From assembly GCA_018699735.1 (NCBI GenBank), contig JABIRP010000353.1, positions 1 through 33,281 on the forward strand: a stretch of 33,281 bases of DNA. The letters run 5' to 3'. This DNA is from Rhodospirillaceae bacterium (lineage in GTDB: Bacteria; Pseudomonadota; Alphaproteobacteria; Thalassobaculales; Thalassobaculaceae). The notes under the pieces are model-generated. The model was not told the DNA's origin. It was given only the letters and a program-made list of their open reading frames with translations, and did no database searches. Positions 127 to 18,876 of the stretch are shown piece by piece (position 1 is the first letter of the stretch; each line of letters starts with the position of its first letter). The translations under genes and the position numbers were made by a program.

Positions 127-3100
127 TCATTGCTTCAGCGAATTCAGCAAGGCCTCGGCGTCAATCAAATCCATTGTGTCAAAACCTTCGGTGAACCAGT
201 CATGGATCGGTTGCAAAAGGTTACGAGCATCGCCTATCTTTGCTTTTTGCGCCCACAAACGCGCGAGCCTTGTGGAGGTCCGAAGCTCCCAGGATTTGGC
301 GCCCTGGTTTTGGGCAATTTCCAATGATTTGAAAAAGAGTTTTTCCGCCTCCGTCGTATCATCTAGTCCACGCACAAAGATCAGCAACTCACCTTTCAGC
401 CGGTAGAGTTCTGCCTCGAACAATCGCTCGTTCGTGCGGTCCACATGCTCCATCGCCTCGTCCAAAAGAGCGAGAGCTTTAACGTACTGACCGTTGGCGG
501 CGTGAACCTCAATCATCTGAGCCATAGCGAGTGGCAGATGGAGAGAGGTTCCTGTTACCCGTAGATCCTCCAATCCCGTTTCCGCCAATGCTATCGCGTC
601 GCCATGCGCGCCCTGGAGGGACGCAATCCATCCCGCCTGGATCGTCCCAACCGCCTTCCATAGGGCCAAGCCCTGCTCGTTGGCCAAACTCAAAAGCGCG
701 GTATTGCTGGTGACGGCGGCGTCCAGATCGCGCCGAGTATGCGCGATCATCACGGCGCCGTAGAAGAGCACGTAGGCCATCGTGTTCGCATGGTTGATTT
801 CTCTGGAGTGGTCGACTGCGGCCTTGACCAGGGCGGAAGCCTGATCGGCGTAACCCATTAGATGCAACGTGCTGGCCTGGAACGCCATGCTGGCGGATTT
901 GGGGTTTTGCCCAAATTGGTATGTCGAGTCCTTGTGTTGCTCGTCATCGTACAAACCGATAGCCGTCTCGAATTCGGATCTTGCTGGCCCAAGTTCACCG
1001 CGGAAATAGTGGCTGACCGCCGTAATCCGGTGGCCCAGGACTTTTGGCAAGGATTCGTCCTGGGCATCTGCCATTTCCAGAAACCGATGCGCAAGATCCC
1101 GCGCCTCGTCGATTTTCGAGCCGATGAGATTGAAAACCCACTGCTGGTATAATACCGGAAACATCAGCGAGGGATCTTCAACCCTATTCGAAAGTTCCTG
1201 CGCGCGTTTGAACACCGCGCCGGTTTCCACAGCACCGTAGCCCTTGGTGGCAATCAACGGGCCGGCAAGCATCGTTTGCAGCTTGAGCTCACGAAGCGCC
1301 GATGCGTCATCGTCGGGCATTGCGCCGATAATGCTGATGCCGAAATTCAAATGCGCGATCGCCTCGGCGTTGGCGGACCGCTCAATCGACCTCTGGCCGG
1401 CCGTCTGCCAATAGTCGACCGCGCGATCTCTAACATTCGCTTCGCTGTAGTGATGGGCCAGAAGTTCGGGGTGGGCTTCGACGATATCCGGGAACTTCGT
1501 CTCCAGGAGCTCGGCGACCTGCTGGTGATAGTGTTGCCGCGGACGACGCAGGAGCGATCCGTAGGCGGCGTCCTTCACCAACGCATGTTTGAAGACATAC
1601 CGGGCATGCGGTGGTCGACCGCGCTGGTAAAGCAGTTCAGACTCGACCAATTGGCCCAATCCCTCCCGCAAGGTCGCGTCGCTGATGTTTGACAGACCCG
1701 AGATCATTTCATAGGCGAACTCGCGACCCAGGACCGAACCGATTTGTGCGAGTTCTCGCACCTGCGGTAGGTGATCCAGGCGGGCCATGAGCGATTCTTG
1801 CAGAGTATCGGGGATCGACAGCGATGATAGCGGTCCGGCCAGTTCGAAGTGATCGCCCGCATCGTGCAGGATATCGGATTCAAGGATGGTCTTGGTCAGC
1901 TCCTCGACATAAAGCGGCACACCATCGGTTTTGGTGACGATGTGATCTACGACTTCTTCCGGCAGAGGTTTAGCGCCGGCTATGCGCGTGACCAGCGCCT
2001 CGGCATGAGGACGCTCAAGACGATTGAGCGTGATTGGGGTGATGTAGGAGCGTGCTGGCCAAGGCGAGATAAATTCCGGCCGGGCTGTGGCGATGACCAG
2101 AAGCGCAGCGGTTGGGGCCTGTTCAATCAGCAGGCCCAGAAACTCCAAAGTCGAAGGATCGGCCCAATGCAAATCCTCCCAAAGCGTCAGAAGTGGTTGA
2201 TGCTCGGCTGTCTCAAGCAAGATTGCGATCAACGTATCTTGCGTTTGTCGTTTTAGCTGCTGCGGCGTTATCTCGATCGCTGGATATCGGTCGCTCGGCA
2301 CTTGTAACGAGAGAACAGACGCGATGAGTGGGACGGATTCACCTAGCGGCTGATCGTACCTTTCCAGTGTGGCCTCCAGCTTCGTCAGTTTGGCTTCGCT
2401 GTCGTCTTCCGGGCGCCATTTGGCCAACCGCTTGAGATATCCGATCATCGGATAAAGCGCGCTACTCGCGTGATAGGGTGAACAGCGAAAGGTAATGCGT
2501 TCCAACCCCTCTTGTCGGGCTTCGGCCTTTAGCCCGTCGATTAATACGCTTTTCCCTATCCCGGCCTCGCCACTGATCGTGACAACCTGGCCGCGTCCTT
2601 CCTCCCTTGTACTGGCCCAGGCTCGGCGCAATAGCCCGGTTTCCTCGTCTCGGCCGACCAAATTCGGCACTTCGGCCGCCCCATCCGTCTCATCGTCATC
2701 AACATCATCGACTAGGTCATCGACCATGCCTACAACGCCCCAAGTCTGGACCTGACCGGCAATACCCTTGAGGCCGTGTGAGCCAAGGTCTTGGTAAACA
2801 AAGGCGTCACCAGTCAGCTCCCTGGTTAAGCCACCAATCACCAAACCGTTGCGTTCGGCCACTCCCTGCAAACGAGCCGCCATGTTCGGCGCCTCGCCGA
2901 TGACGGTCCGTTCTTGTGCCATGCCTTCGCCGACGATCTCGCCGACCATTACCATGCCGGTCGCAACGCCGATCCGAACCGCGATATCGATCCCTTTATC
3001 GCGGCCCATGGTCCGGTTTAACGCCAGGATCGCTTCAATGATGGCCAGTCCGCTCCTCACAGCGCGCTCGGCGTTGCGCTCGAGGGATTTTGGGTAGCCA

Positions 3101-3621
3101 AAATACACCAGGATGCCATCGCCCATATATTTGGCGACGAAGCCTCCGTACTCTTGGATTAACTTGGTGCAAGTTTCCTGATAGGAACGGATGACGTCTT
3201 GCAGGTCTTCTGGATCGAGCTTGGTCGAGAGTTCGGTGGAATCCGCAAGATCGCAAAACATCACAGTCAGTGGCCTGCGCTCCGCCTCGGTTGATAGCGG
3301 CGCGGCACCCGTGTCAGCGTTGGCCGGCGCCGATTGCCCAACGCGTGATGTTGGTTCAGTCGGTTTGATAGCGCTCGGCGGATTGAGGGGCGGGAGCAGG
3401 CTTGCCGTTGAAGGTGTGTCAGCCGCTGGCCCACCACCAACCCAAACAAGATACTCACCATCGCGATCACTCGCCCACCGTCGGACCACGATGAGTTCAT
3501 GACGCAAGGCTTCCAGTTTTTCGTCATCCAGATCCATTTCCAGCCGAATCCAACGGTAGGAAACCTGTCGCTCGTTCAACAAGCGCCAGACGATTTTTTT
3601 GAGTGCGAGTCGGATGTTCAA
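127..3621 (-). CDS. Class III adenylate/guanylate cyclase fused to AAA-type ATPase and C-terminal TPR-like region
   Basis: 1164 aa ORF. Cyclase core 'LTVMFCDLADSTELS...GGFVAKYMGDGILVYFGYP', Walker A 'GEAGIGKS', Walker B-like 'LLTLWEDLHWADPS', helical repeat-rich C-terminus. Confidence 0.9.
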   Translation of the reverse strand: MNIRLALKKIVWRLLNERQVSYRWIRLEMDLDDEKLEALRHELIVVRRWASDRDGEYLVWVGGGPAADTPSTASLLPPLNPPSAIKPTEPTSRVGQSAPANADTGAAPLSTEAERRPLTVMFCDLADSTELSTKLDPEDLQDVIRSYQETCTKLIQEYGGFVAKYMGDGILVYFGYPKSLERNAERAVRSGLAIIEAILALNRTMGRDKGIDIAVRIGVATGMVMVGEIVGEGMAQERTVIGEAPNMAARLQGVAERNGLVIGGLTRELTGDAFVYQDLGSHGLKGIAGQVQTWGVVGMVDDLVDDVDDDETDGAAEVPNLVGRDEETGLLRRAWASTREEGRGQVVTISGEAGIGKSVLIDGLKAEARQEGLERITFRCSPYHASSALYPMIGYLKRLAKWRPEDDSEAKLTKLEATLERYDQPLGESVPLIASVLSLQVPSDRYPAIEITPQQLKRQTQDTLIAILLETAEHQPLLTLWEDLHWADPSTLEFLGLLIEQAPTAALLVIATARPEFISPWPARSYITPITLNRLERPHAEALVTRIAGAKPLPEEVVDHIVTKTDGVPLYVEELTKTILESDILHDAGDHFELAGPLSSLSIPDTLQESLMARLDHLPQVRELAQIGSVLGREFAYEMISGLSNISDATLREGLGQLVESELLYQRGRPPHARYVFKHALVKDAAYGSLLRRPRQHYHQQVAELLETKFPDIVEAHPELLAHHYSEANVRDRAVDYWQTAGQRSIERSANAEAIAHLNFGISIIGAMPDDDASALRELKLQTMLAGPLIATKGYGAVETGAVFKRAQELSNRVEDPSLMFPVLYQQWVFNLIGSKIDEARDLAHRFLEMADAQDESLPKVLGHRITAVSHYFRGELGPARSEFETAIGLYDDEQHKDSTYQFGQNPKSASMAFQASTLHLMGYADQASALVKAAVDHSREINHANTMAYVLFYGAVMIAHTRRDLDAAVTSNTALLSLANEQGLALWKAVGTIQAGWIASLQGAHGDAIALAETGLEDLRVTGTSLHLPLAMAQMIEVHAANGQYVKALALLDEAMEHVDRTNERLFEAELYRLKGELLIFVRGLDDTTEAEKLFFKSLEIAQNQGAKSWELRTSTRLARLWAQKAKIGDARNLLQPIHDWFTEGFDTMDLIDAEALLNSLKQ

Positions 3622-3745: not shown

Positions 3746-4582
3746 TCAGGCCGCTTTCGGTGTGCTGACCAGATTGGCGTTGCCGCTGCCTGAGCTTTGA
3801 GTGTAGGGGCCGTACTGTAGGCCCACCAGGTCACCGGAACTCTCACGCATCGCCTCCATTGCACCCAGCATGGTGTAGAGGATGCGGCCACCCATTTCGG
3901 CGGTGGCATCGATCACGTAACGCGGTGCAAATGCCAACAAGCCATCGAGGTCGCCGGCCTCGACCAACTCGATGAACTGGCGGTCGAGGGCCTGTTCGGG
4001 ATCCGTCGGCCAAAGGGCTGGGCCGCGCCGCACCTTGTGTGCCAGCGCGCAACTGGCGACGAAGACGACCTGTTGGCCGCGGTCCACGGCGACTTTGTGG
4101 ATCAATCTGCCGACTTGCCGATTTTCTTCCAGATCAGAGCAAACGACCGTCGGCAACGGCACGAACGGGATCTCGCCATTCGGGTCGATATGTTTGATCG
4201 GAAGCATGGTGCCGTAATCAAAACGGAAGTTGGGATTGTTGTTGACGCCGCAGGGCACATCCAGACCCTTAATCGCGTCTGTCAGGGCATTGGCGAAACC
4301 CGGCTCACCGGTACGCTTGTAAGGAATTCCAGCGAACAAATCCGGGGCCTCGTCGGCGATGCAGACGCCTTCATGCACCGCGTGACTGGCGGCATACCAC
4401 GGGAAGGTGCTGACCCAATGGGCCGATTGCAACACGATCACGTCGGGCTTCAGAGCACGAATGACCTCGCCCATTTCGTACTGACTTTGGATCAGGGGTT
4501 TGACGAAATCCGGCGCGTTTTCCGGGTCACCCATGCGTGGGGTGTGGGGGGCCAATACGCTCGCAATTACACCTCCAGCCAT
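3746..4582 (-). CDS. LigB-family (class III) extradiol ring-cleavage dioxygenase
   Basis: 278 aa; N-terminal 'VIASVLAPHTPRMGD', 'KPDVIVLQSAHWVSTFP', 'NPNFRFDYGTMLPIKHI', 'VVFVASCALAHKV', resembling the LigB/AmnB/HpaD-type fold. Adjacent to a ring-cleavage-type ALDH. Confidence 0.8.
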   Translation of the reverse strand: MAGGVIASVLAPHTPRMGDPENAPDFVKPLIQSQYEMGEVIRALKPDVIVLQSAHWVSTFPWYAASHAVHEGVCIADEAPDLFAGIPYKRTGEPGFANALTDAIKGLDVPCGVNNNPNFRFDYGTMLPIKHIDPNGEIPFVPLPTVVCSDLEENRQVGRLIHKVAVDRGQQVVFVASCALAHKVRRGPALWPTDPEQALDRQFIELVEAGDLDGLLAFAPRYVIDATAEMGGRILYTMLGAMEAMRESSGDLVGLQYGPYTQSSGSGNANLVSTPKAA

Positions 4583-4607: not shown

Positions 4608-6068
4608 TCAAAGCTTGATGCACACGTTACGCAACTCGGTGTAGAACTCCAGCGAATGGACGCCGCCCTCGCGCCCGATGCCCGACTGCTTGGATCCGCC
4701 GAACGGTGTGCGCAAATCGCGCAAGAACCAGCTGTTCACCCATATGATCCCGGCCTCCATTTTGCTCGCGACCCTATGGGCACGGCTCAAATTCTCGGTC
4801 CAGATCGCACAGGCTAGTCCATAGGGCGTCTCGTTGGCGAGACGGACCACTTCGTCCTCCGCATCAAAGGGTTGGATATGGCAGCAGGGGCCGAATATTT
4901 CCTCGCGCACGATGGCGCTATTTTCGCCTAGGCCGGTCCAAATCGTCGGCTCGACCCAGGCGCCGTTCGCCTGTTCACCCGGCATATCAGGCACGCCGCC
5001 ACCGGTGATGACGATCGCGCCCTCGATCTTGGCTTTCTCGTAGTAAGACAGCACCTTTTCCTGATGCTCCTTGGAAATCAACGGGCCGAGATTGACGCTG
5101 TCGTCATCTGGGGCACCCAGTTTCAGCTTTTCCGCTGCCGCCTTCAAACGGGCGACAAACTCGTCAAAGATCGGCCGCTCGACATAGACCCGCTCGGTGC
5201 CGAGGCAGACCTGGCCGCAATTCGCAAAGACCGAACGCATGGTGCCTTCGATCGCCTTGTCTAGGTCGCAATCGGCGAAGATCAAGGCCGGGTTCTTGCC
5301 GCCAAGCTCGAACGAGACGTCGCGAACACCGACTGCCGCCTCGCGCATGATCGCTTCGCCAGTGCGGGTTTCGCCGGTGAAGGTTATGGCGTCGACGCCC
5401 GGATGGCGGGTCAGGAACTCGCCAGCAGAATTCGACCCGAAGCCGTGGACGACATTGAAGACGCCGGCTGGAATGCCAACCTCATTCATCACTTCGCCCA
5501 GCAGGGTCGTCGTCGCCGGGGTTTCTTCCGACGGCTTGACAACCACGGTGTTGCCGCAGGCCAGCGCCGGGCCAACCTTCCAGGTCATCAGCAGCAAAGG
5601 CAGGTTCCACGGGCTGATCACGCCGATCACACCTTTCGGCACCCGGATAGCGTAGTTCAATGCGCCGGTACCATCGGGGGTATCGAGGTGAAAACTCTCG
5701 GTCGCTTCGCCTTTTACCGCGTCGGCGAAGACCGAGAAATTGGCGGCGCCGCGCGGGATGTCGATATGGCTGGCTAGCGAGCGTGGCTTGCCTGTATCGG
5801 CAATTTCAGCGTCGAGGAACTCGTCGAAACGCCGGTTGATGCCGGCCGCGACCGCGTGCAGTAGTTCCGAGCGCTTGGCTGTCGCCATGCTACCCCATTC
5901 GCCGTCAAGCGCGCCACGCGCGGCGCTGACCGCTGCGTCGATCTCGGCCTCGCCGCCCTCATGCACCATGCCGATTAACGACAGATCGACCGGCGAGCGG
6001 TTCTCGAAGGTTTTTCCGCTGGCGCTCGATACGAATGCGCCGTTGATGAAATGCTTGAATTCGCCCAT
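4608..6068 (-). CDS. Aldehyde dehydrogenase, 2-hydroxymuconic semialdehyde dehydrogenase-like
   Basis: 486 aa ALDH: 'SPWNLPLL', 'FELGGKNPALIFADCD', catalytic 'NCGQVCLGTERVYV', C-terminus 'WFLRDLRTPFGGSKQSGIGREGGVHSLEFYTELRNVCIKL' typical of HMS dehydrogenases (DmpC/XylG/AmnC type). Confidence 0.85.
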   Translation of the reverse strand: MGEFKHFINGAFVSSASGKTFENRSPVDLSLIGMVHEGGEAEIDAAVSAARGALDGEWGSMATAKRSELLHAVAAGINRRFDEFLDAEIADTGKPRSLASHIDIPRGAANFSVFADAVKGEATESFHLDTPDGTGALNYAIRVPKGVIGVISPWNLPLLLMTWKVGPALACGNTVVVKPSEETPATTTLLGEVMNEVGIPAGVFNVVHGFGSNSAGEFLTRHPGVDAITFTGETRTGEAIMREAAVGVRDVSFELGGKNPALIFADCDLDKAIEGTMRSVFANCGQVCLGTERVYVERPIFDEFVARLKAAAEKLKLGAPDDDSVNLGPLISKEHQEKVLSYYEKAKIEGAIVITGGGVPDMPGEQANGAWVEPTIWTGLGENSAIVREEIFGPCCHIQPFDAEDEVVRLANETPYGLACAIWTENLSRAHRVASKMEAGIIWVNSWFLRDLRTPFGGSKQSGIGREGGVHSLEFYTELRNVCIKL

Positions 6069-6172: not shown

Positions 6173-7282
6173 TCAACCCCAGACCTCGTCAGAGATTTCC
6201 TTGACCAAAAGCAACTTGGCTTTCTGCTCATCCTCGGAAATATCGTTACCCTCGACCGTGCTGGAAAACCCACATTGCGGGCTCAGAGCCAGATACTCCA
6301 TGTCGACATATTTGGATGCTTCTTCGATCCGGCGCTTGATCTCGTCCTTGCTTTCGAGTGCGCGAACCTTAGTCGAGATCAGGCCGAGCACGACGGTCTT
6401 GCCCTTTGGCACGAAACGCAAAGGCTCGAAGCCGCCAGAACGCTCATCGTCGTATTCGAGGAAGTAGCCATCGACGTTCATTTCCTGGAACAACGCCTCT
6501 GCGACCGGGTCATAACCGCCTTCGGCAACCCAGGCGCTTTGGAAGTTACCGCGACACAGATGTATGCAGATCGCCATGTCGTCCGGCTTGTCGGCGATGG
6601 CGTCGTTGACCATGCGGGCATAGAGATGCGGCAGAAGGGCCGGGTCCTCGCCCATATCGCGCACGCGCTGATGCTGGGCCGGGTCGCAAAGATAGGCGAG
6701 GTTGGTGTCATCGAACTGTAGGTAGGTGCAGCCGAGCGCTCCCAAATCGGCAAGCTCGCCCTGATAGGCTTTGGCCAAGTCGCGGAAAAAATCCTCCATG
6801 TCGGGATACGCCGTCTCATCGACCGCGTTTCGACCGCCGCGGAAATGCAACATGGTCGGTGACGGGATGGCAATTTTCGGCGTGCCTTTGGTGATCGATT
6901 TGAGATATTTGAAATCCTCGGTGACGATACCGCCGCTGCGCTTCAGCTCGCCACTGACCCGCATGCTCGGTGGTGAGAACTCGATCTGAGCGGTCTTGGT
7001 GTGAAATTTGACGGGCAGGCCGCCTTTTACCTCGACGCCTTCAAGCTTCTCCAGGAAATCGATGTGGAAAAAAGTGCGGCGATGCTCGCCATCGGTGATG
7101 CCTTGCAGACCAACACTTTCCTGCATTGCTACGGCTTTTTTAATCGAAGCGTCTTCGGCGGCGCTGAGCTCGTCGGCGGAAATCTCGCCCTTGTGTCGTT
7201 TTGTGCGCGCCTCGAGCAATTCTGTTGGCCGAAGCAGGGAGCCGACATGGTCGGCTCTGAAGGGGGGATGTGCGGACATCAT
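6173..7282 (-). CDS. Cobalamin-independent methionine synthase-like (MetE C-terminal/YxjG-type) protein
   Basis: 'FRADHVGSLLRP' N-terminus; HxC 'CIHLCRGNF', downstream 'FLEYDDERSG' and 'LALSPQCGFSS' fit a MetE-type zinc site. Start chosen at 7282 (ATGATG preceded by GAGGAAG) rather than the ORF-track start 7315. Confidence 0.82.
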   Translation of the reverse strand: MMSAHPPFRADHVGSLLRPTELLEARTKRHKGEISADELSAAEDASIKKAVAMQESVGLQGITDGEHRRTFFHIDFLEKLEGVEVKGGLPVKFHTKTAQIEFSPPSMRVSGELKRSGGIVTEDFKYLKSITKGTPKIAIPSPTMLHFRGGRNAVDETAYPDMEDFFRDLAKAYQGELADLGALGCTYLQFDDTNLAYLCDPAQHQRVRDMGEDPALLPHLYARMVNDAIADKPDDMAICIHLCRGNFQSAWVAEGGYDPVAEALFQEMNVDGYFLEYDDERSGGFEPLRFVPKGKTVVLGLISTKVRALESKDEIKRRIEEASKYVDMEYLALSPQCGFSSTVEGNDISEDEQKAKLLLVKEISDEVWG

Positions 7283-7371
7283 GGTCGCTTCCTCATTTTC
7301 GCGGATTCTCGCCAACCGGGGTGTTTGAGGCCGTTGTTTGTGAATCCTGGAGTCAGATTGGCGAGAAGCTT

Positions 7372-7383
7372 ATTGGATCCAAT
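7372..7383. promoter_or_regulatory. VanO-type operator ATTGGATCCAAT (core of 14-bp palindrome TATTGGATCCAATA, 7371-7384)
   Basis: Perfect 12-bp palindrome about 90 bp upstream of the MetE-like start; identical copy at 8192-8203 upstream of the GntR gene. Confidence 0.8.
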
Positions 7384-7432
7384 AGGCTTCGACAAGACAG
7401 CATGAAGGTGTGCCCCTCAAGGTGGTTGAAGG

Positions 7433-8119
7433 TTAAGCGGAGGACGGTTTGGCGCCAAGCATTTCTGCGTACCGGATCGCGGCGTTGGCGTGCTCACGCA
7501 TAACGCTTTCCGCGCGTGCAGCTTGCCCTGAAAGGATCGCTTCGAAAATGATCCGGTGCTGCATGTGGGCGAAGCTCAGCCGCTTATATTCGATCTCCAG
7601 ATTCTCCTTGTCGATCGCAACAGATGCGACAGAGGCAAACGGCAGATTGTCGTTCCGCTTAAGTGCGACCTCGACGGCTAGGCTTCCACTGGCTGCGAGG
7701 ATCGTCGAATGAAACAGAACGTTCAAATCGTGATACTCGTCGATATCGTCTTCGATGAGGTAGCCCTTGGCGAGTAACCGGTCTCCGCGGGTTAGGCAGT
7801 CCTCCAATGTGTCTTGGGTTTCGGTGCCAAGGCCGTTCTCGGTGGCCAGTCTTGAAGCCAAACCCTCAAGAACACCGCGTACCTCAATTGCATTGGCGAT
7901 CTCGCTCGGATCGGTTTCGCGCACCATGTAACCGCGAGCACCGGCCTTGTGCAGCAGGCCCTCATGTTCCAGGGCGCGAAATGCCAGGCGGATCGGTGTT
8001 CGCGAGACGCCGAGCCGTTCCGATATCGGGATCTCCGCCAATCGCTGGCCCGGCGAAAGTTCGCCGCTGATAATGAGGTGCCGGAGTGTAACCAGAACCC
8101 GTTGCCCTTGCTTGCTCAT
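7433..8119 (-). CDS. vanR: GntR-family (FCD-type) transcriptional regulator, VanR-like
   Basis: 228 aa; wHTH 'LRHLIISGELSPGQRLAEIPISERLGVSRTPIRLAFRALEHEGLLHKAGARGYMVR' then 'IEVRGVLEGLASRLA'; resembles Caulobacter VanR as recalled. Palindrome ATTGGATCCAAT lies upstream. No vanAB in the window, so the symbol denotes family resemblance. Confidence 0.85.
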   Translation of the reverse strand: MSKQGQRVLVTLRHLIISGELSPGQRLAEIPISERLGVSRTPIRLAFRALEHEGLLHKAGARGYMVRETDPSEIANAIEVRGVLEGLASRLATENGLGTETQDTLEDCLTRGDRLLAKGYLIEDDIDEYHDLNVLFHSTILAASGSLAVEVALKRNDNLPFASVASVAIDKENLEIEYKRLSFAHMQHRIIFEAILSGQAARAESVMREHANAAIRYAEMLGAKPSSA

Positions 8120-8191
8120 GCTGCGCCGGCCGGTTGCCTAAAGTAATTTCTCCACATTAGTGCTCTCGTTTCACAAAAGCCATCTTGGCCG

Positions 8192-8203
8192 ATTGGATCC
8201 AAT
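8192..8203. promoter_or_regulatory. VanO-type operator ATTGGATCCAAT
   Basis: Perfect 12-bp palindrome about 70-80 bp upstream of the GntR/VanR-like start (8119, minus); identical to 7372-7383. Confidence 0.8.
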
Positions 8204-8250: not shown

Positions 8251-8793
8251 TCAGGCTGGCGTGACTTCAAAGCGGCAGTGATCGTGACCCTCACCGGCGC
8301 AACTGACCTCCTTGGAACTGAGCGCCCAGCCGAGGTCGCGGCCGACCCAGTCGAGTGCTCCAGGAAACCAACCGGCGCACATATAACAGAGTTTGCTGCC
8401 GGTTTCAGCGCCGGTACCGCCGCTCAATTCACTACCGTGGTGCAATACAAAGCAGGAGTGCTCCAGGCGCACAAAGCCCAGGCCGGTCGCGGGGTCGATG
8501 CCGGCACCGTCGAATAGTCCACCGCCGCGCTGAGACATGCGTTTCATGTAGTGATGGAAGACCGTCATACCCGACAGGCCATGCGTTTTTGCCTCGGCCT
8601 CGCACCAGGTATATGCCGACTTGTATCCGGATCGATATAGCGAGGCGGCATACGCCTCACGACCAAGGGCGGCTTCTACCTCGAGGTGGTTGTTGACGAA
8701 GGAATGGCGCGGCAAGTAGAGCATGGGCATCCCATCGGTCGACCAGATCCCGGTTTCCGGATCGACCTCGATAGGCACTTGTGGTTTAGCCAT
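8251..8793 (-). CDS. V4R-like / XylR-N-terminal-like small-molecule sensing domain protein
   Basis: 180 aa; pattern 'LCYMCAGWFPGALDWVGRDLGWALSSKEVSCAGEGHDHCRFEV' is typical of V4R domains. No output domain visible. Confidence 0.7.
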   Translation of the reverse strand: MAKPQVPIEVDPETGIWSTDGMPMLYLPRHSFVNNHLEVEAALGREAYAASLYRSGYKSAYTWCEAEAKTHGLSGMTVFHHYMKRMSQRGGGLFDGAGIDPATGLGFVRLEHSCFVLHHGSELSGGTGAETGSKLCYMCAGWFPGALDWVGRDLGWALSSKEVSCAGEGHDHCRFEVTPA

Positions 8794-9157
8794 GAATTTG
8801 CCTTCCCGACTGATTGAAGGTTTTGACGCTCAACGATCATGTCGCCCGCTTTTGGTCGTGTCTATCGGCACAACGCTGCCAACAACGTAAATCGCCAATC
8901 GTCGGCGGTGTTCTGGTTGGCGACTGATATGTAACTGAGTGCGCGGGGGTGCGGGGTGGCAAATGGCTATACACGGAAATGATTTCAGTGTTTGATGATT
9001 GCACTAATTCGCCACATCAAATTCACGCAATTCGACGTGGAAGGCGGTTATGACAGGGGGCGACATGAACTCGGTTTGCCGGTTCAGGTGGGGAAACTTA
9101 AAACAAGATCGAAACAATCTTTCCAACCGGTGAACAGTGATGTGAAGGTTTACATTG

Positions 9158-9186
9158 AAAGACTGTGAGCATGACTGCCAGTCTTT
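9158..9186. promoter_or_regulatory. Inverted repeat AAAGACTG-N13-CAGTCTTT upstream of the AEP transporter operon
   Basis: Perfect 8-bp arms (9158-9165, 9179-9186), about 70 bp upstream of the ATG at 9258. Confidence 0.45.
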
Positions 9187-9257
9187 AAACATGCGATGCT
9201 ATCCAAACGGCTGACAATAACAGCCAACAAACACTAACGAGAGGGCAAGGAGTTAAT

Positions 9258-10295
9258 ATGTTGGAACAATTCGGAAATTCGAGGGCTGCTCGGACGCTTG
9301 TTGCCGCAGCGGGCCTGATGGTGGTGGCCTCGGCCGCTCAAGCAACTGACTTGACGGTCTATACCGCCGTCGAAGCGGAAGACTTGAAGAAATATGCCAA
9401 GGCATTCAACAAGACCAACCCCGACATCAATATCAAATGGGTTCGGGATTCCACCGGCATTGTTACGGCCAAATTACTGGCCGAGAAGAATAATCCGCAG
9501 GCTGATGTGGTCTGGGGCTTGGCTGCGACCAGCCTCATGCTCTTGAAAGCCGAAGGCATGACCGAACCCTATGCTCCGGTGGGCGTTGGCAAGTTGGATA
9601 AGAAGTTTGTCGATTCGGCCAATCCGCCGCATTGGACCGGTATGGACGCCTGGATCGCTTCTGTTTGCTTCAATACCGTTGAAGGCAAAAAGAACGGCCT
9701 GCCGATCCCGACCTCTTGGAAGGATCTGACCAAACCGGTCTACAAAGGTCATGTCGTGATGCCGAACCCGAACTCGTCTGGAACCGGCTTCCTGGACGTA
9801 TCGAGCTGGCTGCAAATGTTTGGTGAAGAGGGTGGTTGGAAGTTCATGGACGCCCTGCACCAGAACATCAACTGGTACACGCACTCGGGCTCCAAGCCCT
9901 GCAAGCAGGCCGCCAGCGGCGAAACCCCCATCGGTATTTCCTTCGCCTTCCGCGGTGCCAAATCCAAAGCCAAGGGCGCGCCGTTGGAGATCATTCTGCC
10001 GAGCGAGGGTATTGGTTGGGACATGGAAGCGACCGCGATCATGAAAGGCACCAAGAACCTGGCAGCCGCCAAGAAGCTTGTTGATTTCACGATCACCAAG
10101 GAAGCCAACGTGATGTACAACAAGGGCTATGCCGTTGTGGCCTATCCAGGTGTCGCTAAGAAGGTGAAGCACTTCCCGGCCGGAATCTTGGAGGCCATGA
10201 TCGACAACAAGTTCGAGTGGGCTGCAACCAATCGCAAGCGCATTTTGAGCAAGTGGCAGACGCGATACGATTCCAAATCCCTGCCTAAGAAATAA
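9258..10295 (+). CDS. aepX: ABC transporter periplasmic substrate-binding protein, putative 2-aminoethylphosphonate type (AepX/PhnS2-like)
   Basis: 345 aa; signal peptide 'LVAAAGLMVVASAAQA', then 'TDLTVYTAVEAEDLKKYAKAFNKTNPDINIKWVRDSTGIVTAKLLAEK' (Fe3+/AEP-type SBP). AAGGAG RBS. Followed by ATPase, permease and phnX. Confidence 0.85.
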   Translation: MLEQFGNSRAARTLVAAAGLMVVASAAQATDLTVYTAVEAEDLKKYAKAFNKTNPDINIKWVRDSTGIVTAKLLAEKNNPQADVVWGLAATSLMLLKAEGMTEPYAPVGVGKLDKKFVDSANPPHWTGMDAWIASVCFNTVEGKKNGLPIPTSWKDLTKPVYKGHVVMPNPNSSGTGFLDVSSWLQMFGEEGGWKFMDALHQNINWYTHSGSKPCKQAASGETPIGISFAFRGAKSKAKGAPLEIILPSEGIGWDMEATAIMKGTKNLAAAKKLVDFTITKEANVMYNKGYAVVAYPGVAKKVKHFPAGILEAMIDNKFEWAATNRKRILSKWQTRYDSKSLPKK

Positions 10296-10325
10296 TAGGC
10301 TAGCCTAAGTCATATTGTTGTATGG

Positions 10326-10357
10326 CCGTCCGGTGTTCATTGATACGCACCGGACGG
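10326..10357 (+). terminator. Intercistronic stem-loop CCGTCCGGTG-N12-CACCGGACGG followed by a T-rich tract
   Basis: 10-bp perfect stem (10326-10335 / 10348-10357) then 'TCATCGTTTTATT', between the SBP and ATPase genes; partial terminator or mRNA-stabilising hairpin. Confidence 0.65.
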
Positions 10358-10395
10358 TCATCGTTTTATTCTGGATATGATCGGAACTGAAGACC

Positions 10396-11481
10396 ATGGA
10401 CAGCGCCGCCAGATCATTTTTGAAAATCGAAAATCTGGTGAAAAAGTTCGGCGACTTCACGGCGCTGCAGGACATCTCTCTCGACGTTTATGACGGTGAA
10501 TTTGTTTGTTTTCTGGGGCCGTCGGGGTGTGGCAAGACCACGTTGTTGCGGGCCATTGCCGGCCTGGATATTCAGACCCACGGCCGCATCGAGCAAGATG
10601 GCAAAGACATTTCCGCCCTGCCGCCGGCTGAGCGTGACTTCGGCATTGTCTTTCAATCCTATGCCTTGTTCCCCAACCTGACGGTTGAACGAAACGTTGC
10701 CTACGGCCTCGAGAACCGGAAGCTGCCAAGAGCCGAGATCGATGTCCGGGTCGCTGAGTTGCTGCAGTTGGTCGGCCTGCCCGATCAGGGCACAAAGTAT
10801 CCGGCCCAGCTATCTGGCGGCCAACAGCAACGCGTGGCCTTGGCCCGCGCCATGGCGACGTCGCCGGGATTGCTGTTGTTGGATGAACCGCTGAGCGCGC
10901 TGGATGCGCGTGTGCGCGTCCATTTGCGCACCGAGATCAAGGATCTGCAGCGCCGCCTGGGTGTGACCACCATCATGGTGACCCACGATCAAGAGGAAGC
11001 CCTGACCATGGCCGATCGGATCGTTGTCATGAACCATGGGGTCATTGACCAGGTTGGGACGCCGCAGGAAATCTATGGGTCGCCCGCGACATCTTTCGTT
11101 GCCGACTTCATCGGATCCATGAATTTTATCCCAGGAACAGTGGCGGCGAAGGGGCGCGTGACAGTTGGCGATTTCCCACTCGACTGCGACACCACCGGGT
11201 TTAACGAAGGAGACGCAATTACGGTCTCGATCCGCCCAGAGGATATCAATGCTCAGGATATGGAGCATGACGACAATGTCGTCGATGGCGAAATCACGCA
11301 TCTGCAATTCATGGGATCGTTTTATCGCGCTGAGTTGGGCGGGGCGGCATTCTCCGGCCATGACGTGCAGGCGGACTTCTCGGTTAATTTGGTGCGCCGC
11401 AAGAACGTGGTATTGGGCTCGAAATTGCCGATCCGACTGCCGGCTGATCATATTCAATTATATCCCCCGGTCGAAGACTAG
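10396..11481 (+). CDS. aepV: ABC transporter ATP-binding protein, putative 2-aminoethylphosphonate type
   Basis: 361 aa; Walker A 'GPSGCGKTT', signature 'LSGGQQQRVALARA', Walker B 'LLLLDEPLSALD', C-terminal TOBE-like region. Confidence 0.88.
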   Translation: MDSAARSFLKIENLVKKFGDFTALQDISLDVYDGEFVCFLGPSGCGKTTLLRAIAGLDIQTHGRIEQDGKDISALPPAERDFGIVFQSYALFPNLTVERNVAYGLENRKLPRAEIDVRVAELLQLVGLPDQGTKYPAQLSGGQQQRVALARAMATSPGLLLLDEPLSALDARVRVHLRTEIKDLQRRLGVTTIMVTHDQEEALTMADRIVVMNHGVIDQVGTPQEIYGSPATSFVADFIGSMNFIPGTVAAKGRVTVGDFPLDCDTTGFNEGDAITVSIRPEDINAQDMEHDDNVVDGEITHLQFMGSFYRAELGGAAFSGHDVQADFSVNLVRRKNVVLGSKLPIRLPADHIQLYPPVED

Positions 11482-11484
11482 ATC

Positions 11485-13197
11485 ATGGCCGACGCCAGCC
11501 TGACCGCTCAAACCTCAGACCGCGCCATCGTTCGGCCGAAACTGAGCCGTGACGATTGGATCATGCGAACGGTCATGGTCGCGATCGGTGTGTTTTTGTT
11601 GATTGCCGTACTCTTGCCGCTCTACACGATGATGTCGAAAAGCGTAGAGAACAAGGACGGTGGATTTGTCGGATTCGCGAATTTCGCCGAGTACTTCTCT
11701 ACGCCGGCATTGTTCAATTCCGCTTTTAACAGCCTGTCGATCTCCATCTTGGCGACCTTGATCATCCTGGTTGTAACGTTCATTTACGGGTACGCGCTGA
11801 CACGGACCTGCATGCCGTTCAAATGGTTCTTCAAACTCGTGGCCATGGTGCCCTTGCTGACGCCGTCGTTGCTGGGCGGGATCTCCCTGATTTACTGGTT
11901 CGGCAATCAGGGGGTCCTGAAAGATCTGTTGTTTGGCGAGAAAATCTACGGCCCGATCGGCATCACCATGGGATCATCTTACTGGGTCTTTCCACATGCC
12001 TTGATGATCGTGATCACCGCACTTTCGATTACCGACGCCCGGCTTTATGAAGCGGCGGAAGCGCTTAGAACCAGTAAGCTGAAGACGTTTCTCACCGTGA
12101 CGATCCCAGGCTGTAAATATGGTCTGATCAGCGCTGGTTTCGTCGTCTTTACCTTGGTGTTCACGGATTTCGGTGTGCCCAAGGTGATCGGCGGCAACTA
12201 CAACATGCTGGCCACCGATATCTACAAACAGGTGATCGGTCAGCAGAACTTTCAAATGGGTGCGGTTGTCTCGGTCGTCTTGTTGGTGCCGGCAATTATA
12301 GCCTTCTCCGTCGACCGTATCGTTCAGCGCAAACAAGTCGCCCTGCTCTCGGCGCGCGCGGTCCCCTATACCCCGAAGCCGAGCCGGGGCCGCGATATGT
12401 CGATGCTGGCTTTCTGTTCGGTTATCGCGCTCATCATTATTGCCATGATCGGCATGGCTCAATACGCGGCGCTGGTGACCTTCTGGCCGTATAATTTGGA
12501 GTTTTCTCTGAACAACTATGACTTCGATGTCATGGATGGCGGCGGTTGGGAGGCGTTTTGGAACTCCATCGAGATGGCGCTGTACACCGCCTTCTTCGGA
12601 ACCATCATCGTGTTTACCGGCGCTTATTTGATGGAGAAGGGCCGGGGATTCACTGTCGGGCGTTCGGCCTTTCACATGGTGGCAATGGCACCTCTGGCCG
12701 TGCCGGGAATGGTCTTGGGATTGGCGTATATTTTCTTTTTCAACAATCCCGCCAACCCATTCAATTTCATCTATGGCACCATGGGGATCCTGGTGGTCGC
12801 AACAGTTGTCCACTTCTATACGGTTAGCCACCTGACGGCGGTTACGGCGCTCAAGCAAATGGACCCGGAATTCGAATCCGTCTCGGCTTCGTTAAAGGCG
12901 CCGTTCTACAAGACGTTCGCCAAAGTGACTGTGCCGGTATGCATGCCGGCCGTCTTCGACATTTCGATCTATCTGTTCCTTAACGCCATGACCACGGTTT
13001 CAGCGGTGGTCTTCCTGTATTCCTCCGACACGACGCTGGCGTCTGTGGCGGTCTTGAATATGGATGATGCCGGTGATGTGGCGCCGGCTGCGGCCATGGC
13101 CATGATGATCGCCTACACCTGCGCCGCCATGCGAATTGTTCAGGTCGTCTTGACCCGCGGAATTGCGATCAAGACCCAGGCTTGGCGAAATCAGTAA
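11485..13197 (+). CDS. aepW: ABC transporter permease (fused two-domain FbpB/PhnU-type), putative 2-aminoethylphosphonate type
   Basis: 570 aa with many TM segments and two permease halves; starts 3 nt after the ATPase stop. Confidence 0.87.
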   Translation: MADASLTAQTSDRAIVRPKLSRDDWIMRTVMVAIGVFLLIAVLLPLYTMMSKSVENKDGGFVGFANFAEYFSTPALFNSAFNSLSISILATLIILVVTFIYGYALTRTCMPFKWFFKLVAMVPLLTPSLLGGISLIYWFGNQGVLKDLLFGEKIYGPIGITMGSSYWVFPHALMIVITALSITDARLYEAAEALRTSKLKTFLTVTIPGCKYGLISAGFVVFTLVFTDFGVPKVIGGNYNMLATDIYKQVIGQQNFQMGAVVSVVLLVPAIIAFSVDRIVQRKQVALLSARAVPYTPKPSRGRDMSMLAFCSVIALIIIAMIGMAQYAALVTFWPYNLEFSLNNYDFDVMDGGGWEAFWNSIEMALYTAFFGTIIVFTGAYLMEKGRGFTVGRSAFHMVAMAPLAVPGMVLGLAYIFFFNNPANPFNFIYGTMGILVVATVVHFYTVSHLTAVTALKQMDPEFESVSASLKAPFYKTFAKVTVPVCMPAVFDISIYLFLNAMTTVSAVVFLYSSDTTLASVAVLNMDDAGDVAPAAAMAMMIAYTCAAMRIVQVVLTRGIAIKTQAWRNQ

Positions 13198-13206
13198 GAA
13201 CAACTC

Positions 13207-13252
13207 ATAAGTAAAATCGATATATTTTATTATTTATAGCGATTTGCCTTAT
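13207..13252. promoter_or_regulatory. Candidate LysR-type operator: inverted pair ATAAGTAAAATCGAT ... AGCGATTTGCCTTAT upstream of phnX
   Basis: Arms 13207-13221 and 13238-13252; a third copy (AGCGATTTTACTTAT, 18829-18843) lies in the lysR/pbfA intergenic region. Confidence 0.55.
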
Positions 13253-13320
13253 CCATTGGCTTGCTGTCAGATAGCGCATAATTCGCTCAGAGATTCCGAT
13301 CAAATCAGGAGAAACGACCA

Positions 13321-14169
13321 ATGCCGATGGCATCAGATTATGTTTACCAGCGTTCCTATCGAGGCAAAGTTCAGGGCGTCGTCCTCGACTGGAGCGGCAC
13401 GACCGCCGACGCCTATGTGATTGCCCCGGCAGTCGTCTTTGTTGAGGTGTTCAAGCGCCAGGGTGTCGAGATTTCGATGCTGGAAGCACGCGGCCCCATG
13501 GGCTTGCGCAAGGACTTGCACATCAAGGCGCTGACGGAAGTGCCAGAAATTCGCGCGCGTTGGAAAGAGATCAAAGGGTCTGAGCCGACCCAGGCCGACG
13601 TGGATGCCATGTTCACGGATTTCGTGCCATTGCAGATCGAGTGTCTGCCGGAATATACCCCTCTGCTGCCCGGTGTCGCCGAGGTCACGCAGAAGATGCA
13701 GGCCGACGGTTTGAAACTTGGTGTGTCGACCGGCTTCATCCGGCCGATGGTCGACGTCCTGTTGGCGGCTGCAAAGAAGCAGGGCTTCAACCCGGATGCT
13801 ACAGTGGCCGGTGATGAGGTCATGCATGGCGCCCGGCCAAAGCCGTTTATGGTCTACCGGAACCTCGATTTGATGGACATCCATCCGATCCAGTCGGTGG
13901 TCAAGGTCGACGACACCGCTTCGGGCGTCGGGGAAGCGTTGGAGGCCGGTTGCTGGGGCGTTGGTGTGTCGCTGTACAGCAACTACATGGATATCAATAC
14001 CATTGCGGAAGCCGAAGCGATGCCGGCGGAAGAGATTGCCCGGCGCAATGCTTTGACGGCGGAGATTTTGCGCAAGACTGGCGCGCATTACGTCATCGAT
14101 AGCATCGTCGATCTACCGGCGGTCATCGACGACATCAACACCCGTTTGGCGCGCGGCGAGCGGCCGTAG
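13321..14169 (+). CDS. phnX: Phosphonoacetaldehyde hydrolase
   Basis: 282 aa; HAD nucleophile motif 'VVLDWSGTTAD', Schiff-base region 'MGLRKDLHIKAL', 'VKVDDTASGVGEALEAGCWGVGV'. RBS AGGAGA. Confidence 0.95.
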   Translation: MPMASDYVYQRSYRGKVQGVVLDWSGTTADAYVIAPAVVFVEVFKRQGVEISMLEARGPMGLRKDLHIKALTEVPEIRARWKEIKGSEPTQADVDAMFTDFVPLQIECLPEYTPLLPGVAEVTQKMQADGLKLGVSTGFIRPMVDVLLAAAKKQGFNPDATVAGDEVMHGARPKPFMVYRNLDLMDIHPIQSVVKVDDTASGVGEALEAGCWGVGVSLYSNYMDINTIAEAEAMPAEEIARRNALTAEILRKTGAHYVIDSIVDLPAVIDDINTRLARGERP

Positions 14170-14199
14170 CCCGCAGCGGATGCGTTAGAGGCGAAAGCG

Positions 14200-15474
14200 A
14201 TGGATCAGGCCGAACGCGCCCTGGCAGTATTCCCGGCGGGAATCGCCAACGGCGAGTTCGGCCTGCCCGCCGAACAACTGGTCGTCATGGCGCGTGGCGA
14301 GGGCTGCCACCTATGGGATACTGGCGGCCGGGAGTATCTCGATTTCTCGCTCGGCTGGGGGTCCTGTCTGGTCGGGCATGCGCGGCCGGAAATCGTCGAA
14401 GCGGTTCAGGCCCAAGCGGCGATGGGCTCCAACTTTGCTTACCTGAACACCCATGTTTTGGATCTGGCTGAGGAAATCTGCCGGATCAGTCCAGCCAGCC
14501 AAAGGCTCCGGTTCTGTGCCTCAGGCACGGAAGCGACGATGTATTGCCAACGCCTTGCACGCGGCTTTACCGGCAAGACCAAAATTCTGAAGTTCGAGGG
14601 CGCCTATCACGGTGCCAACGAAGCCGGGGTAACCAGCTTATTTGCGCAAAAAGACCTGGATTACCCGCAACCGGAACTGACCAGCGCCGGTACGCCGGCG
14701 GCGGCATACCAACTGCTGGTCGCGCCGTACAACGATCTGGGCAAGACGGCTTCCATCATTGCTGACAACAGGAATGAACTGGCCGGCGTGATCATGGAGC
14801 CGCTACAGCGCTGTACACCGCCGAAAGAGGGATTTCTGGAAGGCGTGCGCCAATTGTGCACCGATCATGGCATCGTCCTGATCTATGACGAAGTGGTAAC
14901 CGGGTTCCGTCTCGCCTATGGCGGGGCGCAGGAGTATTACGGCGTCACCCCCGACCTGGTGGCCTATGGGAAGGCGCTGGGCGGTGGATATCCCATTGGT
15001 GCCTTTGGCGGCCGTGCGGACATCATGGAAATGACCAACGAGCACCGCATCGGCGGCGAAGATTATGTGTGGATGGCATCCACACTTGGTGGCAATCCGG
15101 TCTCGGCTGCTGCTGCGATGGCGGCGCTGTCGGTGTTTCGTCAGCCAGGCACCTACGAGCGCCTGCATGGGCTGGGCAATTATCTCCGAGCCGGCATGCG
15201 TAGGGTGTTGCGTGATCATCAGGAAACCGCTCAGGTCATAGGCGATGGCCCATTGGCCCAGGTGGTGTTCAGCGGCGATGCGGTTTTCGACTATCGATCG
15301 ACAAAGAAGGGGGATTCAGCGCGGGGCCGAGCCTGCATGCTGAAATTGTTTGAAAGCGGCGTCTTTCTTAACCCCATGGGGACCAAGCTGTATCTCTCGC
15401 TGGCCCATGATGAAACCATCTGCGACCAGTTCCTGGACAGGTTCTCCGACGCACTCTCCGTGACCAAGGCGTAA
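14200..15474 (+). CDS. Class III PLP aminotransferase, glutamate-1-semialdehyde aminomutase-like
   Basis: 424 aa; 'SGTEATMYCQRLARG', 'YDEVVTGFR', PLP lysine region 'VAYGKALGGGYPIGAFGG'. Confidence 0.88.
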   Translation: MDQAERALAVFPAGIANGEFGLPAEQLVVMARGEGCHLWDTGGREYLDFSLGWGSCLVGHARPEIVEAVQAQAAMGSNFAYLNTHVLDLAEEICRISPASQRLRFCASGTEATMYCQRLARGFTGKTKILKFEGAYHGANEAGVTSLFAQKDLDYPQPELTSAGTPAAAYQLLVAPYNDLGKTASIIADNRNELAGVIMEPLQRCTPPKEGFLEGVRQLCTDHGIVLIYDEVVTGFRLAYGGAQEYYGVTPDLVAYGKALGGGYPIGAFGGRADIMEMTNEHRIGGEDYVWMASTLGGNPVSAAAAMAALSVFRQPGTYERLHGLGNYLRAGMRRVLRDHQETAQVIGDGPLAQVVFSGDAVFDYRSTKKGDSARGRACMLKLFESGVFLNPMGTKLYLSLAHDETICDQFLDRFSDALSVTKA

Positions 15475-15479
15475 CCACA

Positions 15480-17930
15480 ATGCCAAACAAGAAACTACCA
15501 ACCCAGGCCCGTGTCGTCATCGTCGGCGGCGGGATCGTCGGCTGTTCCGTTGCCTACCACCTGACCAAACTGGGGTGGAAGGATGTTGTCCTGTTGGAGC
15601 AGGGGCGGTTGAGCGGTGGCACCACGTGGCATGCCGCCGGCCTGGTCGGCCAGTTGCGGGCCCAGGAAAACATGACGCGACTGATCCAATACAGCACAGA
15701 TCTATATGAGAGCCTGGAGGAGGAAACCGGCCTTGCGACTGGCTGGAAGCGTACCGGCAGTGTCATCATTGCCCGTACCGAAGAGCGCATGACGGTGATC
15801 AAACGCACCGCCGCCGTCGCTGCTGCTTACGGTATCGAAGCGGACATCATTTCGGCCAAACAGGCGCAGGATAAGTGGCCAATTATGCAAGTCGACGATG
15901 TGGTCGGCGGTGTCTGGCTACCGGGCGACGGCAAGGCCAACCCAGCCGATATCACCCAGGCCTTGGCCAAAGGCGCCCGCAATCGCGGCGCCATGATATT
16001 CGAGAAAACCCGGGTTACCGGTGTTGCCACCGCGAACGGCATTGCGACCGGTGTGCAAACGGCGGACGGCGATATTGCCTGTGAGGTGGTGATCAATTGC
16101 GCCGGTCAATGGGCGCGGCAGTTCGGCCGGTTGGCTGGTGTGACCGTGCCGCTCTATTCCGCGGAACATATGTACATCGTCACCAAGCCGATCGAGGGTG
16201 TGCCCCGAGACATGGCAATGCTGCGTGATCCCGACGGCTATATCTATGGCAAAGAGGAAGTCGGCGGCCTGGTCCTCGGTGGCTTCGAGCCGGATGCCAA
16301 GCCCTGGGGCATGGACGGCATTCCAGATGAGTTCGAATTCACCTTGTTGCCGGACGATTGGGATCAATTCGGTATCCTGATGGAGAACGCGTTGCATCGG
16401 ATCCCGGCCCTGGCTGAGGCGGAGGTGCGGCAGTTCATTAACGGCCCGGAGAGCTTTACCCCCGACAGCAACTACATCCTGGGCGAGGCGCCGGAACTAA
16501 AGAACTATTATGTCGGCGCCGGCTTCAACTCCATGGGCATTGCGAGCGCTGGCGGTGCCGGCAAGGCGCTGGCGGAGTGGGTCGTCAATGGCGAGCCGAC
16601 CATGGATCTTTGGCCGGTCGATATTCGCCGTTTCGCGCATTTCCAAGGCAATGACAAATGGCTCGGTGAACGGGTTGGGGAGACCCTGGGCACCCATTAC
16701 GCCATGCCCTGGCCGAACCGGGAGATGCTGACAGCACGTCCGTTCCGTCGCTCTCCGGTCTACCACCTGCTGCAAGCGAAGGGTGCCTGCTTCGGATCCA
16801 AGATGGGTTGGGAGCGCGCGGTCTGGTTCGCACCGAATGGCGAACAGCCTGAGATGGAATACGCCTTCGGCCGGCAGAACTGGTTCGAGTATCGTGCCGC
16901 AGAACACCGTGCTGCCCGGGAAGCCGTCGCCGTCTTCGATCAAACCTCGTTCTCGAAATTCCAAATCGAGGGGCGTGATGCGGAAGCGGTCTTGCAGCGC
17001 CTCTGTGCCAACAACATGGCCGTCGAACCTGGGGTTTGCGTCTATACCGGGATGTTGAACGAACGCGGCGGTTATGAAAGCGATGTCACCGTCACCCGGC
17101 TGTCCGAGGACAAGTATTTCATGGTCTCCGGCTCGGCCCAGACCACGCGAGACATGGGCTGGATCAAGAGCAATATCCCGGACGGATCCCATTGTGTCGT
17201 GACCGATGTCAGCTCTGGCTATGCCGTCTTCGGTGTAATGGGACCAAACGCCCGGGACCTGCTATCCCGCCTGACCGACGCAGACCTGAGCAGCGAGGCC
17301 TTTCCATTTTCCACCATGCAGCGGATCAGCATCGGCTACGCCACGGCCTGGGCATTTCGGATGACCTATGTGGGCGAGTTGGGCTGGGAGCTATATGTAC
17401 CGGCCGAATTCGCCGTCGGCGTCTACGAAGCGCTTTTAGCGGCGGGCGTGGACCTTGGTTTGCGGGATGCCGGGTATTACGCGATCGATAGCCTGCGCAT
17501 CGAGAAAGGCTTTCGCGCCTGGGGGCATGAGCTGACACCGGATACAACGCCGTTCCAGGCTGGGTTGAGCTTCGCCGTCGACTTAGACAAACCATTTCCC
17601 TTTATCGGCCGGGACGCCTTGCTTGCGGCGAAGGGACAGCCGCTGACCAAGCGGGTCCTGCATTTTACCCTGGGCGACAGCGAGCCCATTTTATGGGGCG
17701 GTGAGCTCATTCTGCTCGACGGCAATCCGGTCGGAAAAATCGACTCCGGCAGCTACGGCCATACCCTGGGGGCCTCCGTCGGCTTGGGCTATATCCGCCA
17801 TGATGCGGGCGTCGACACGGCCCTGATCGAGGCTGGCGGTTTCGAGATCGACGTCGCGGGTGAACGTCATATCGCAACGGCACGCCTGCGGACCCCCTAC
17901 GATCCAAAAGCCGAACGTGTGAAAGTTTAG
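15480..17930 (+). CDS. FAD-dependent oxidoreductase with GcvT-like C-terminus (dimethylglycine/sarcosine dehydrogenase family)
   Basis: 816 aa; 'VVIVGGGIVGCSVAYHLTKLGW', covalent-flavin-type 'GGTTWHAAGLVGQLR', C-terminal GcvT-like 'TYVGELGWELYVPAEF ... GYYAIDSLRIEKGFRAWGHEL'. Confidence 0.9.
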   Translation: MPNKKLPTQARVVIVGGGIVGCSVAYHLTKLGWKDVVLLEQGRLSGGTTWHAAGLVGQLRAQENMTRLIQYSTDLYESLEEETGLATGWKRTGSVIIARTEERMTVIKRTAAVAAAYGIEADIISAKQAQDKWPIMQVDDVVGGVWLPGDGKANPADITQALAKGARNRGAMIFEKTRVTGVATANGIATGVQTADGDIACEVVINCAGQWARQFGRLAGVTVPLYSAEHMYIVTKPIEGVPRDMAMLRDPDGYIYGKEEVGGLVLGGFEPDAKPWGMDGIPDEFEFTLLPDDWDQFGILMENALHRIPALAEAEVRQFINGPESFTPDSNYILGEAPELKNYYVGAGFNSMGIASAGGAGKALAEWVVNGEPTMDLWPVDIRRFAHFQGNDKWLGERVGETLGTHYAMPWPNREMLTARPFRRSPVYHLLQAKGACFGSKMGWERAVWFAPNGEQPEMEYAFGRQNWFEYRAAEHRAAREAVAVFDQTSFSKFQIEGRDAEAVLQRLCANNMAVEPGVCVYTGMLNERGGYESDVTVTRLSEDKYFMVSGSAQTTRDMGWIKSNIPDGSHCVVTDVSSGYAVFGVMGPNARDLLSRLTDADLSSEAFPFSTMQRISIGYATAWAFRMTYVGELGWELYVPAEFAVGVYEALLAAGVDLGLRDAGYYAIDSLRIEKGFRAWGHELTPDTTPFQAGLSFAVDLDKPFPFIGRDALLAAKGQPLTKRVLHFTLGDSEPILWGGELILLDGNPVGKIDSGSYGHTLGASVGLGYIRHDAGVDTALIEAGGFEIDVAGERHIATARLRTPYDPKAERVKV

Positions 17931-18799: not shown

Positions 18800-18828
18800 C
18801 GAGAAAACCTTTCGTTTGGCCCAATATC

Positions 18829-18843
18829 AGCGATTTTACTTAT
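18829..18843. promoter_or_regulatory. Candidate LysR operator half-site AGCGATTTTACTTAT between lysR and pbfA
   Basis: Reverse complement ATAAGTAAAATCGCT matches 14/15 with 13207-13221; matches 13238-13252 at 13/15. Confidence 0.5.
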
Positions 18844-18876
18844 GTTTAAATTTTCCGCATTGATGAGGCAAGGGCG

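Follow-up and report, generated by a model that had tools for sequence, protein, structure and literature searches.

The vanillate repressor VanR and its operator VanO form a widely used gene switch. The locus described here lies in a 33,281-nt stretch of the genome of a Rhodospirillaceae bacterium (the whole of which we call the window), and it shares with VanR/VanO systems of the Caulobacter, Acinetobacter and Pseudomonas type a clade of FCD-type GntR regulators, an identical 12-bp operator, and the position of one such site ahead of the target operon; autoregulation is plausible here as well. It differs in that vanAB is absent from the locus and was not found in the genome, and in that the second operator precedes genes for a MetE-like protein, an aldehyde dehydrogenase, and a LigB-family protein. 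Atu1419 of Agrobacterium fabrum (PDB 6z74), a tetrameric FCD repressor with N5,N10-methylene-THF as its proposed effector, recognizes the operator ATGTATACAT (PMC7797058). Its fold and its metal/ligand core residues are those of the window regulator, and its two operators per locus with looping are a precedent for the present layout, whereas its 39% identity, its place in a sister group, its own operator, and its other targets set it apart. VanR2 of Pseudomonas sp. NGC7, reported to be 30-33% identical to VanR, is a GntR repressor that responds to syringate and 3-O-methylgallate and controls vanAB and mga genes; like the window system as we picture it, it represses both its own gene and an operon for methoxy-aromatics, and its palindrome, GGGATCCC, is centred on GGATCC (PMC12314914). 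The pairing of VanR with VanO is already known, and the neighbours described here vary a known arrangement.

A VanR-clade regulator between two identical operators

The original prediction, made from the DNA letters, was that two perfect palindromes of the VanO type surround a VanR-like GntR gene. Both copies of the 12-bp palindrome ATTGGATCCAAT are exact (Table 1); the positions given for the palindromes were right, and only the start assigned to the region, 7371, fell one base ahead of the first of them. The identification with Caulobacter VanO is also supported, by a printed vanillate promoter construct of that organism that includes AATTGGATCCAATC (PMC6538847). Across the whole assembly (4,710,612 bases in 431 contigs, 90.8% complete) the scan of 4.71 Mb returned these two exact copies alone, with no crowd of unrelated occurrences. 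From base composition we would expect about 0.1-0.3 exact copies in such a genome by chance, so that two copies flanking a single regulator gene at a distance of 820 bp are not a chance occurrence. Ten further sites in the genome differ from the palindrome at one position: seven lie within predicted genes, an eighth overlaps the predicted start of an ORF, a ninth falls just beyond a gene's 3' end, and the tenth has only a weak candidate ORF. No related gene was seen beside any of the ten in this whole-genome scan, and a regulon extending beyond the regulator locus was set aside for want of a convincing target among them.

Table 1. Features of the regulator locus, numbered from the first base of the window
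Feature	Position	Strand	Remarks
Operator 1, ATTGGATCCAAT	8192..8203	.	exact match; 72 bp ahead of the start codon of gntR; putative site of autoregulation
FCD-type GntR regulator, 228 aa, VanR clade	7433..8119	-	Pfam GntR + FCD; tree
Operator 2, ATTGGATCCAAT	7372..7383	.	exact match; between gntR and metE-like gene
Possible promoter over operator 2	7367..7395	-	TTGTCG (7395-7390), 17-bp spacer, TAAGCT (7372-7367); by eye
MetE-like (core methionine-synthase-type) methyltransferase	6173..7282	-	likely start ATG 7282; ORF opens 7315 TTG
2-hydroxymuconic/2-aminomuconic semialdehyde dehydrogenase	4608..6068	-	TIGR03216, 882.9 bits (cut-off 693.25)
LigB-family extradiol dioxygenase-like protein	3746..4582	-	Pfam LigB

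Along the minus strand come a DUF5943/V4R gene (8251-8793), operator 1, gntR, operator 2, and the genes for the MetE-like protein, the dehydrogenase, and the LigB protein, a layout of operator and gntR that fits the autoregulation originally proposed. Operator 2 forms the centre of a longer inverted repeat of 26 bp at 7365-7390 (GAAGCTTATTGGA/TCCAATAGGCTTC, 92% complementary). A promoter scan over both operators reported nothing, the possible promoter TTGTCG-N17-TAAGCT falling below the scan threshold; it is weak, and its position agrees, by eye, with that of clearer promoters in two related genomes described below.

That the protein reads like VanR is borne out by its relatives. Both Pfam domains (PF00392 and PF07729) exceed their gathering scores, and in a tree of 63 homologues the regulator falls inside a 29-row clade with vanAB-linked regulators (support 83/99), with Atu1419, its closest relative in the PDB (6z74, E 1.6e-37), in the sister group. 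Its own branch is not firmly placed within the clade, and lies outside the main vanAB subclade. It is 55-57% identical to vanAB-adjacent regulators of Pseudomonas-like genomes and 46-57% identical to VanR proteins, a range that includes a Caulobacter VanR sequence. Among the sequences compared, the nearest relative of this Caulobacter sequence lies beside vanAB in genome G742 and is 81% identical to it. When the Caulobacter sequence was compared with 151 genomes, only relatives of 57-60% identity appeared in that family, and it serves as a lead only.

The DNA-binding domain is 69-70% identical to those of the nearest relatives (G747 and G750), and the core of the ligand pocket does not discriminate. 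Arg86, Asn137, and three metal-binding histidines (His141, His192, and His214) are kept in the regulator and are common to essentially all FCD relatives aligned, those of the Atu1419 group and those linked to vanAB alike. An attempt to read the ligand from the pocket residues failed on this account, and the inducer, vanillate or other, cannot be read from sequence.

The genes behind the second operator

Profile matches agree with the original assignment of the downstream genes as MetE-like, semialdehyde dehydrogenase, and LigB rather than vanAB. The MetE-like protein passes NF005085/PRK06520 (459.9 bits against a cut-off of 313) and carries the motifs HxCR, LEYD/LEFD, and SPQCGF, in which the metal ligands H, C, E, and C do not vary across 12 homologues. 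Relatives of the MetE-like protein were also found beside gallate-pathway genes in Pantoea. The best solved relatives of the dehydrogenase are 2-aminomuconate 6-semialdehyde dehydrogenases, the 2-hydroxymuconic and 2-aminomuconate types being indistinguishable here, and those of the LigB protein, by a weak match (E ~1e-12), are 2-aminophenol 1,6-dioxygenases. LigB orthologues with 54-55% identity sit in meta-cleavage clusters of two other genomes (G235 and G328), and in two more (G117 and G224) a LigB relative lies near a close homologue of the dehydrogenase (HMSD) and a RidA-family gene.

The absence of vanillate demethylase genes was likewise upheld. The regulator locus is fully covered and holds no vanAB, and VanA was not found in the 90.8% complete genome, where the best Rieske match has 31% identity over under half of the query; with about 9% possibly missing, vanA is likely to be absent from the genome as a whole. 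No match to LigM in the genome passes the model cut-off. The lower meta-pathway enzyme 4-hydroxy-2-oxovalerate aldolase (TIGR03217) is below its cut-off throughout the genome, and the ring-cleavage route is therefore incomplete or different.

Several other features of the window were recorded. Relatives of the DUF5943/V4R gene occur in operons with glyA, a dipeptidase, DUF5943, a flavin oxidoreductase, an Fe-S protein, and ETF, which we take to be similar to the operons for dimethylglycine catabolism in Pseudomonas. A 2-aminoethylphosphonate cluster on the plus strand (9258-21422) comprises phnS2, phnT2, phnU2, phnX, a HemL-like aminotransferase gene, pbfA, and phnW, together with a gene for a protein like dimethylglycine/sarcosine dehydrogenase with a GcvT domain; the inverted repeat TTGAAAGACTG-N13-CAGTCTTTAAA at 9155-9189, upstream of phnS2, is a candidate regulator site. 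A large adenylate cyclase/AAA ATPase protein encoded at 127-3621 on the minus strand resembles fusions of the TOMM kinase/cyclase type, with a score under the cut-off of that family.

Operators and targets across the clade

Twenty-five loci of the VanR clade, searched to 500 bp from the regulator gene, carry 21 exact operators, where first-order Markov sequences would give 0.005, and 14 of the 25 have a site that matches fully or differs at one position; the same search found no exact operator at 16 loci of the sister, Atu1419-like group. The operator therefore belongs to the clade and not to vanillate regulation as such. At several vanAB loci with no match inside 500 bp the operator lies just outside, upstream of vanA, and at two clade loci (L094 and L009) the region searched holds no clear operator. 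A count over 11 other genomes gave 21 exact copies, 19 of them at the locus of the regulator itself; exact operators off the regulator locus were seen at G328:C56:4650-4661 and G562:C1:1773432-1773443. In a distant FCD family from the same taxonomic family (L019, L026-L033), one-mismatch near-operators, ATTGGATACAAT and ATTGNATCCAAT, stand about 1.15 kb apart, and a PhnT-like ABC ATPase gene is close by at two of its loci.

The closest counterparts of the window locus are in two alphaproteobacterial genomes, G747 and G750, whose regulators are 61% and 60% identical to the window protein. There too gntR stands between two exact operators, the first having similar flanks and its centre 78 nt upstream of the start, as in the window, and the second lying inside the 17-bp spacer of a promoter that is clear by eye, TTGACA-N17-T(C/T)TAAT. 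Their targets are different, a Rieske oxygenase of the VanA_C type with a VanB-type reductase in place of metE-like, dehydrogenase, and LigB genes, and neither genome has a MetE-like gene at E<=1e-60. More widely, regulators of the VanR clade or its sister group adjoin vanAB, Rieske/VanB pairs of other kinds, MetE-like genes (some accompanied by oxygenases, some not), the gene of a TRAP binding protein, or a cluster of MTHFR-like, corrinoid, and UROD genes. Single loci combine several of these: vanB, vanA, gntR, and metE in one (L070, genome G647), a Rieske oxygenase, gntR, and VanB arrangement with metE in two genomes (G031 and G012), and one same-strand run of genes for a Rieske oxygenase, an FCD GntR, a VanB-type reductase, an ABC transporter, and a MetE-like protein (L185, genome G244). 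At L035 a VanR-clade regulator adjoins genes for a Rieske oxygenase, an MTHFR-like protein, a corrinoid protein, and two UROD-like methyltransferases (UROD assigned by eye).

The original prediction also spoke of the rewiring of a vanillate switch onto another pathway. Part of this stands, the conserved pair of regulator and operator with different targets; a vanillate ancestor is not supported, given the tree and the varied targets. Targets turn over often in this clade and the ancestral one is not fixed by the tree, which weakens the case for rewiring, and the window locus is one of several target variants in the clade.

A proposed switch and its alternatives

The locus probably encodes an autoregulated VanR-clade repressor of a presumed metE-like/dehydrogenase/LigB operon, which would most likely serve as a compact unit for the breakdown of a methylated aromatic compound. 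Without inducer, the repressor would bind its sites upstream of gntR and of the operon and block both promoters. A dimer of dimers could bridge the two sites, and looping across the 820 bp between them is possible because Atu1419 bridges two sites in this way (PMC7797058). An inducer tied to the methylated aromatic would bind the FCD domain, releasing the repressor and allowing expression of the operon, whereupon the MetE-like enzyme would handle the methyl group, LigB would open a ring of the catechol or aminophenol type, and the resulting semialdehyde would be oxidized by the dehydrogenase. Against this mechanism, the operon has no demethylase unless the MetE-like protein is one, the aldolase of the lower meta pathway is below its cut-off in the genome, most MetE-like relatives have no FCD regulator beside them (one of 20 loci inspected does), and some VanR-clade loci show no clear operator in the region searched. 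A bolder version, in which the repressors of the VanR clade generally switch aromatic methyl release and, in this lineage, the MetE-like protein is an aromatic-to-thiol demethylase feeding LigB and the aminomuconic semialdehyde dehydrogenase (AMSDH) without VanAB or LigM, seems to us improbable. No relevant report of an aromatic demethylase of the MetE-like kind turned up in literature searches, and passages of the core methionine synthase paper describe no such role.

The regulator might instead sense a one-carbon folate, as Atu1419 is proposed to do, and control methyl handling, the ring-cleavage genes being passengers in the operon. Atu1419 is the nearest solved relative, the residues that contact citrate and Zn in it are kept (Arg86, Tyr133, Asn137, His141, His192, and His214; PMC7797058), Lys175 is as in Atu1419 where most vanAB-linked relatives have Arg, and the targets of the clade are rich in genes for MetE-like, MTHFR-like, and corrinoid proteins. 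However, the Arg/Asn/His core occurs in practically all the FCD members aligned and so does not discriminate, Lys175 is also found in the vanAB-linked regulator L082, the window protein falls outside the Atu1419 group in the tree, and the Atu1419 operator is absent from the window even with one mismatch allowed; we regard this reading as unlikely. A general one-carbon link through MetE-like genes, strong when approached from the regulators, was not retained, an FCD regulator being nearby at one of the 20 close MetE-like loci inspected.

Two further readings place the true target elsewhere. A plain vanillate repressor, with vanAB in the ~9% that the assembly lacks and the metE-like operon as a secondary methyl-salvage target, would suit the many vanAB regulators of the clade and the union of vanBA, gntR, and metE in G647, but the failure to find VanA in a genome this complete makes it doubtful at best, as does the habit of vanAB relatives of having the regulator adjoin vanAB, which the fully covered locus here does not show. 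Still further from the evidence is a PhnR-like regulator belonging to the adjacent 2-aminoethylphosphonate cluster, whose locus the operators would serve. The best NCBIfam match of the regulator is indeed TIGR03338 (phnR_burk), and the phn cluster begins at 9258, but the match reaches 100.7 bits where 271.5 are required, the gene at 8251-8793 separates both operators from phnS2, and no near-match to the operator lies upstream of 9258. The PhnR reading was rejected for its score and for the place of the operators, and is very improbable.

In the window a natural VanR relative has the identical operator and other neighbours, so that operator identity predicts neither the ligand nor the target genes, and the precise pair of sites provides a handle on what an uncharacterized operon of a MetE-like protein and an extradiol dioxygenase degrades.
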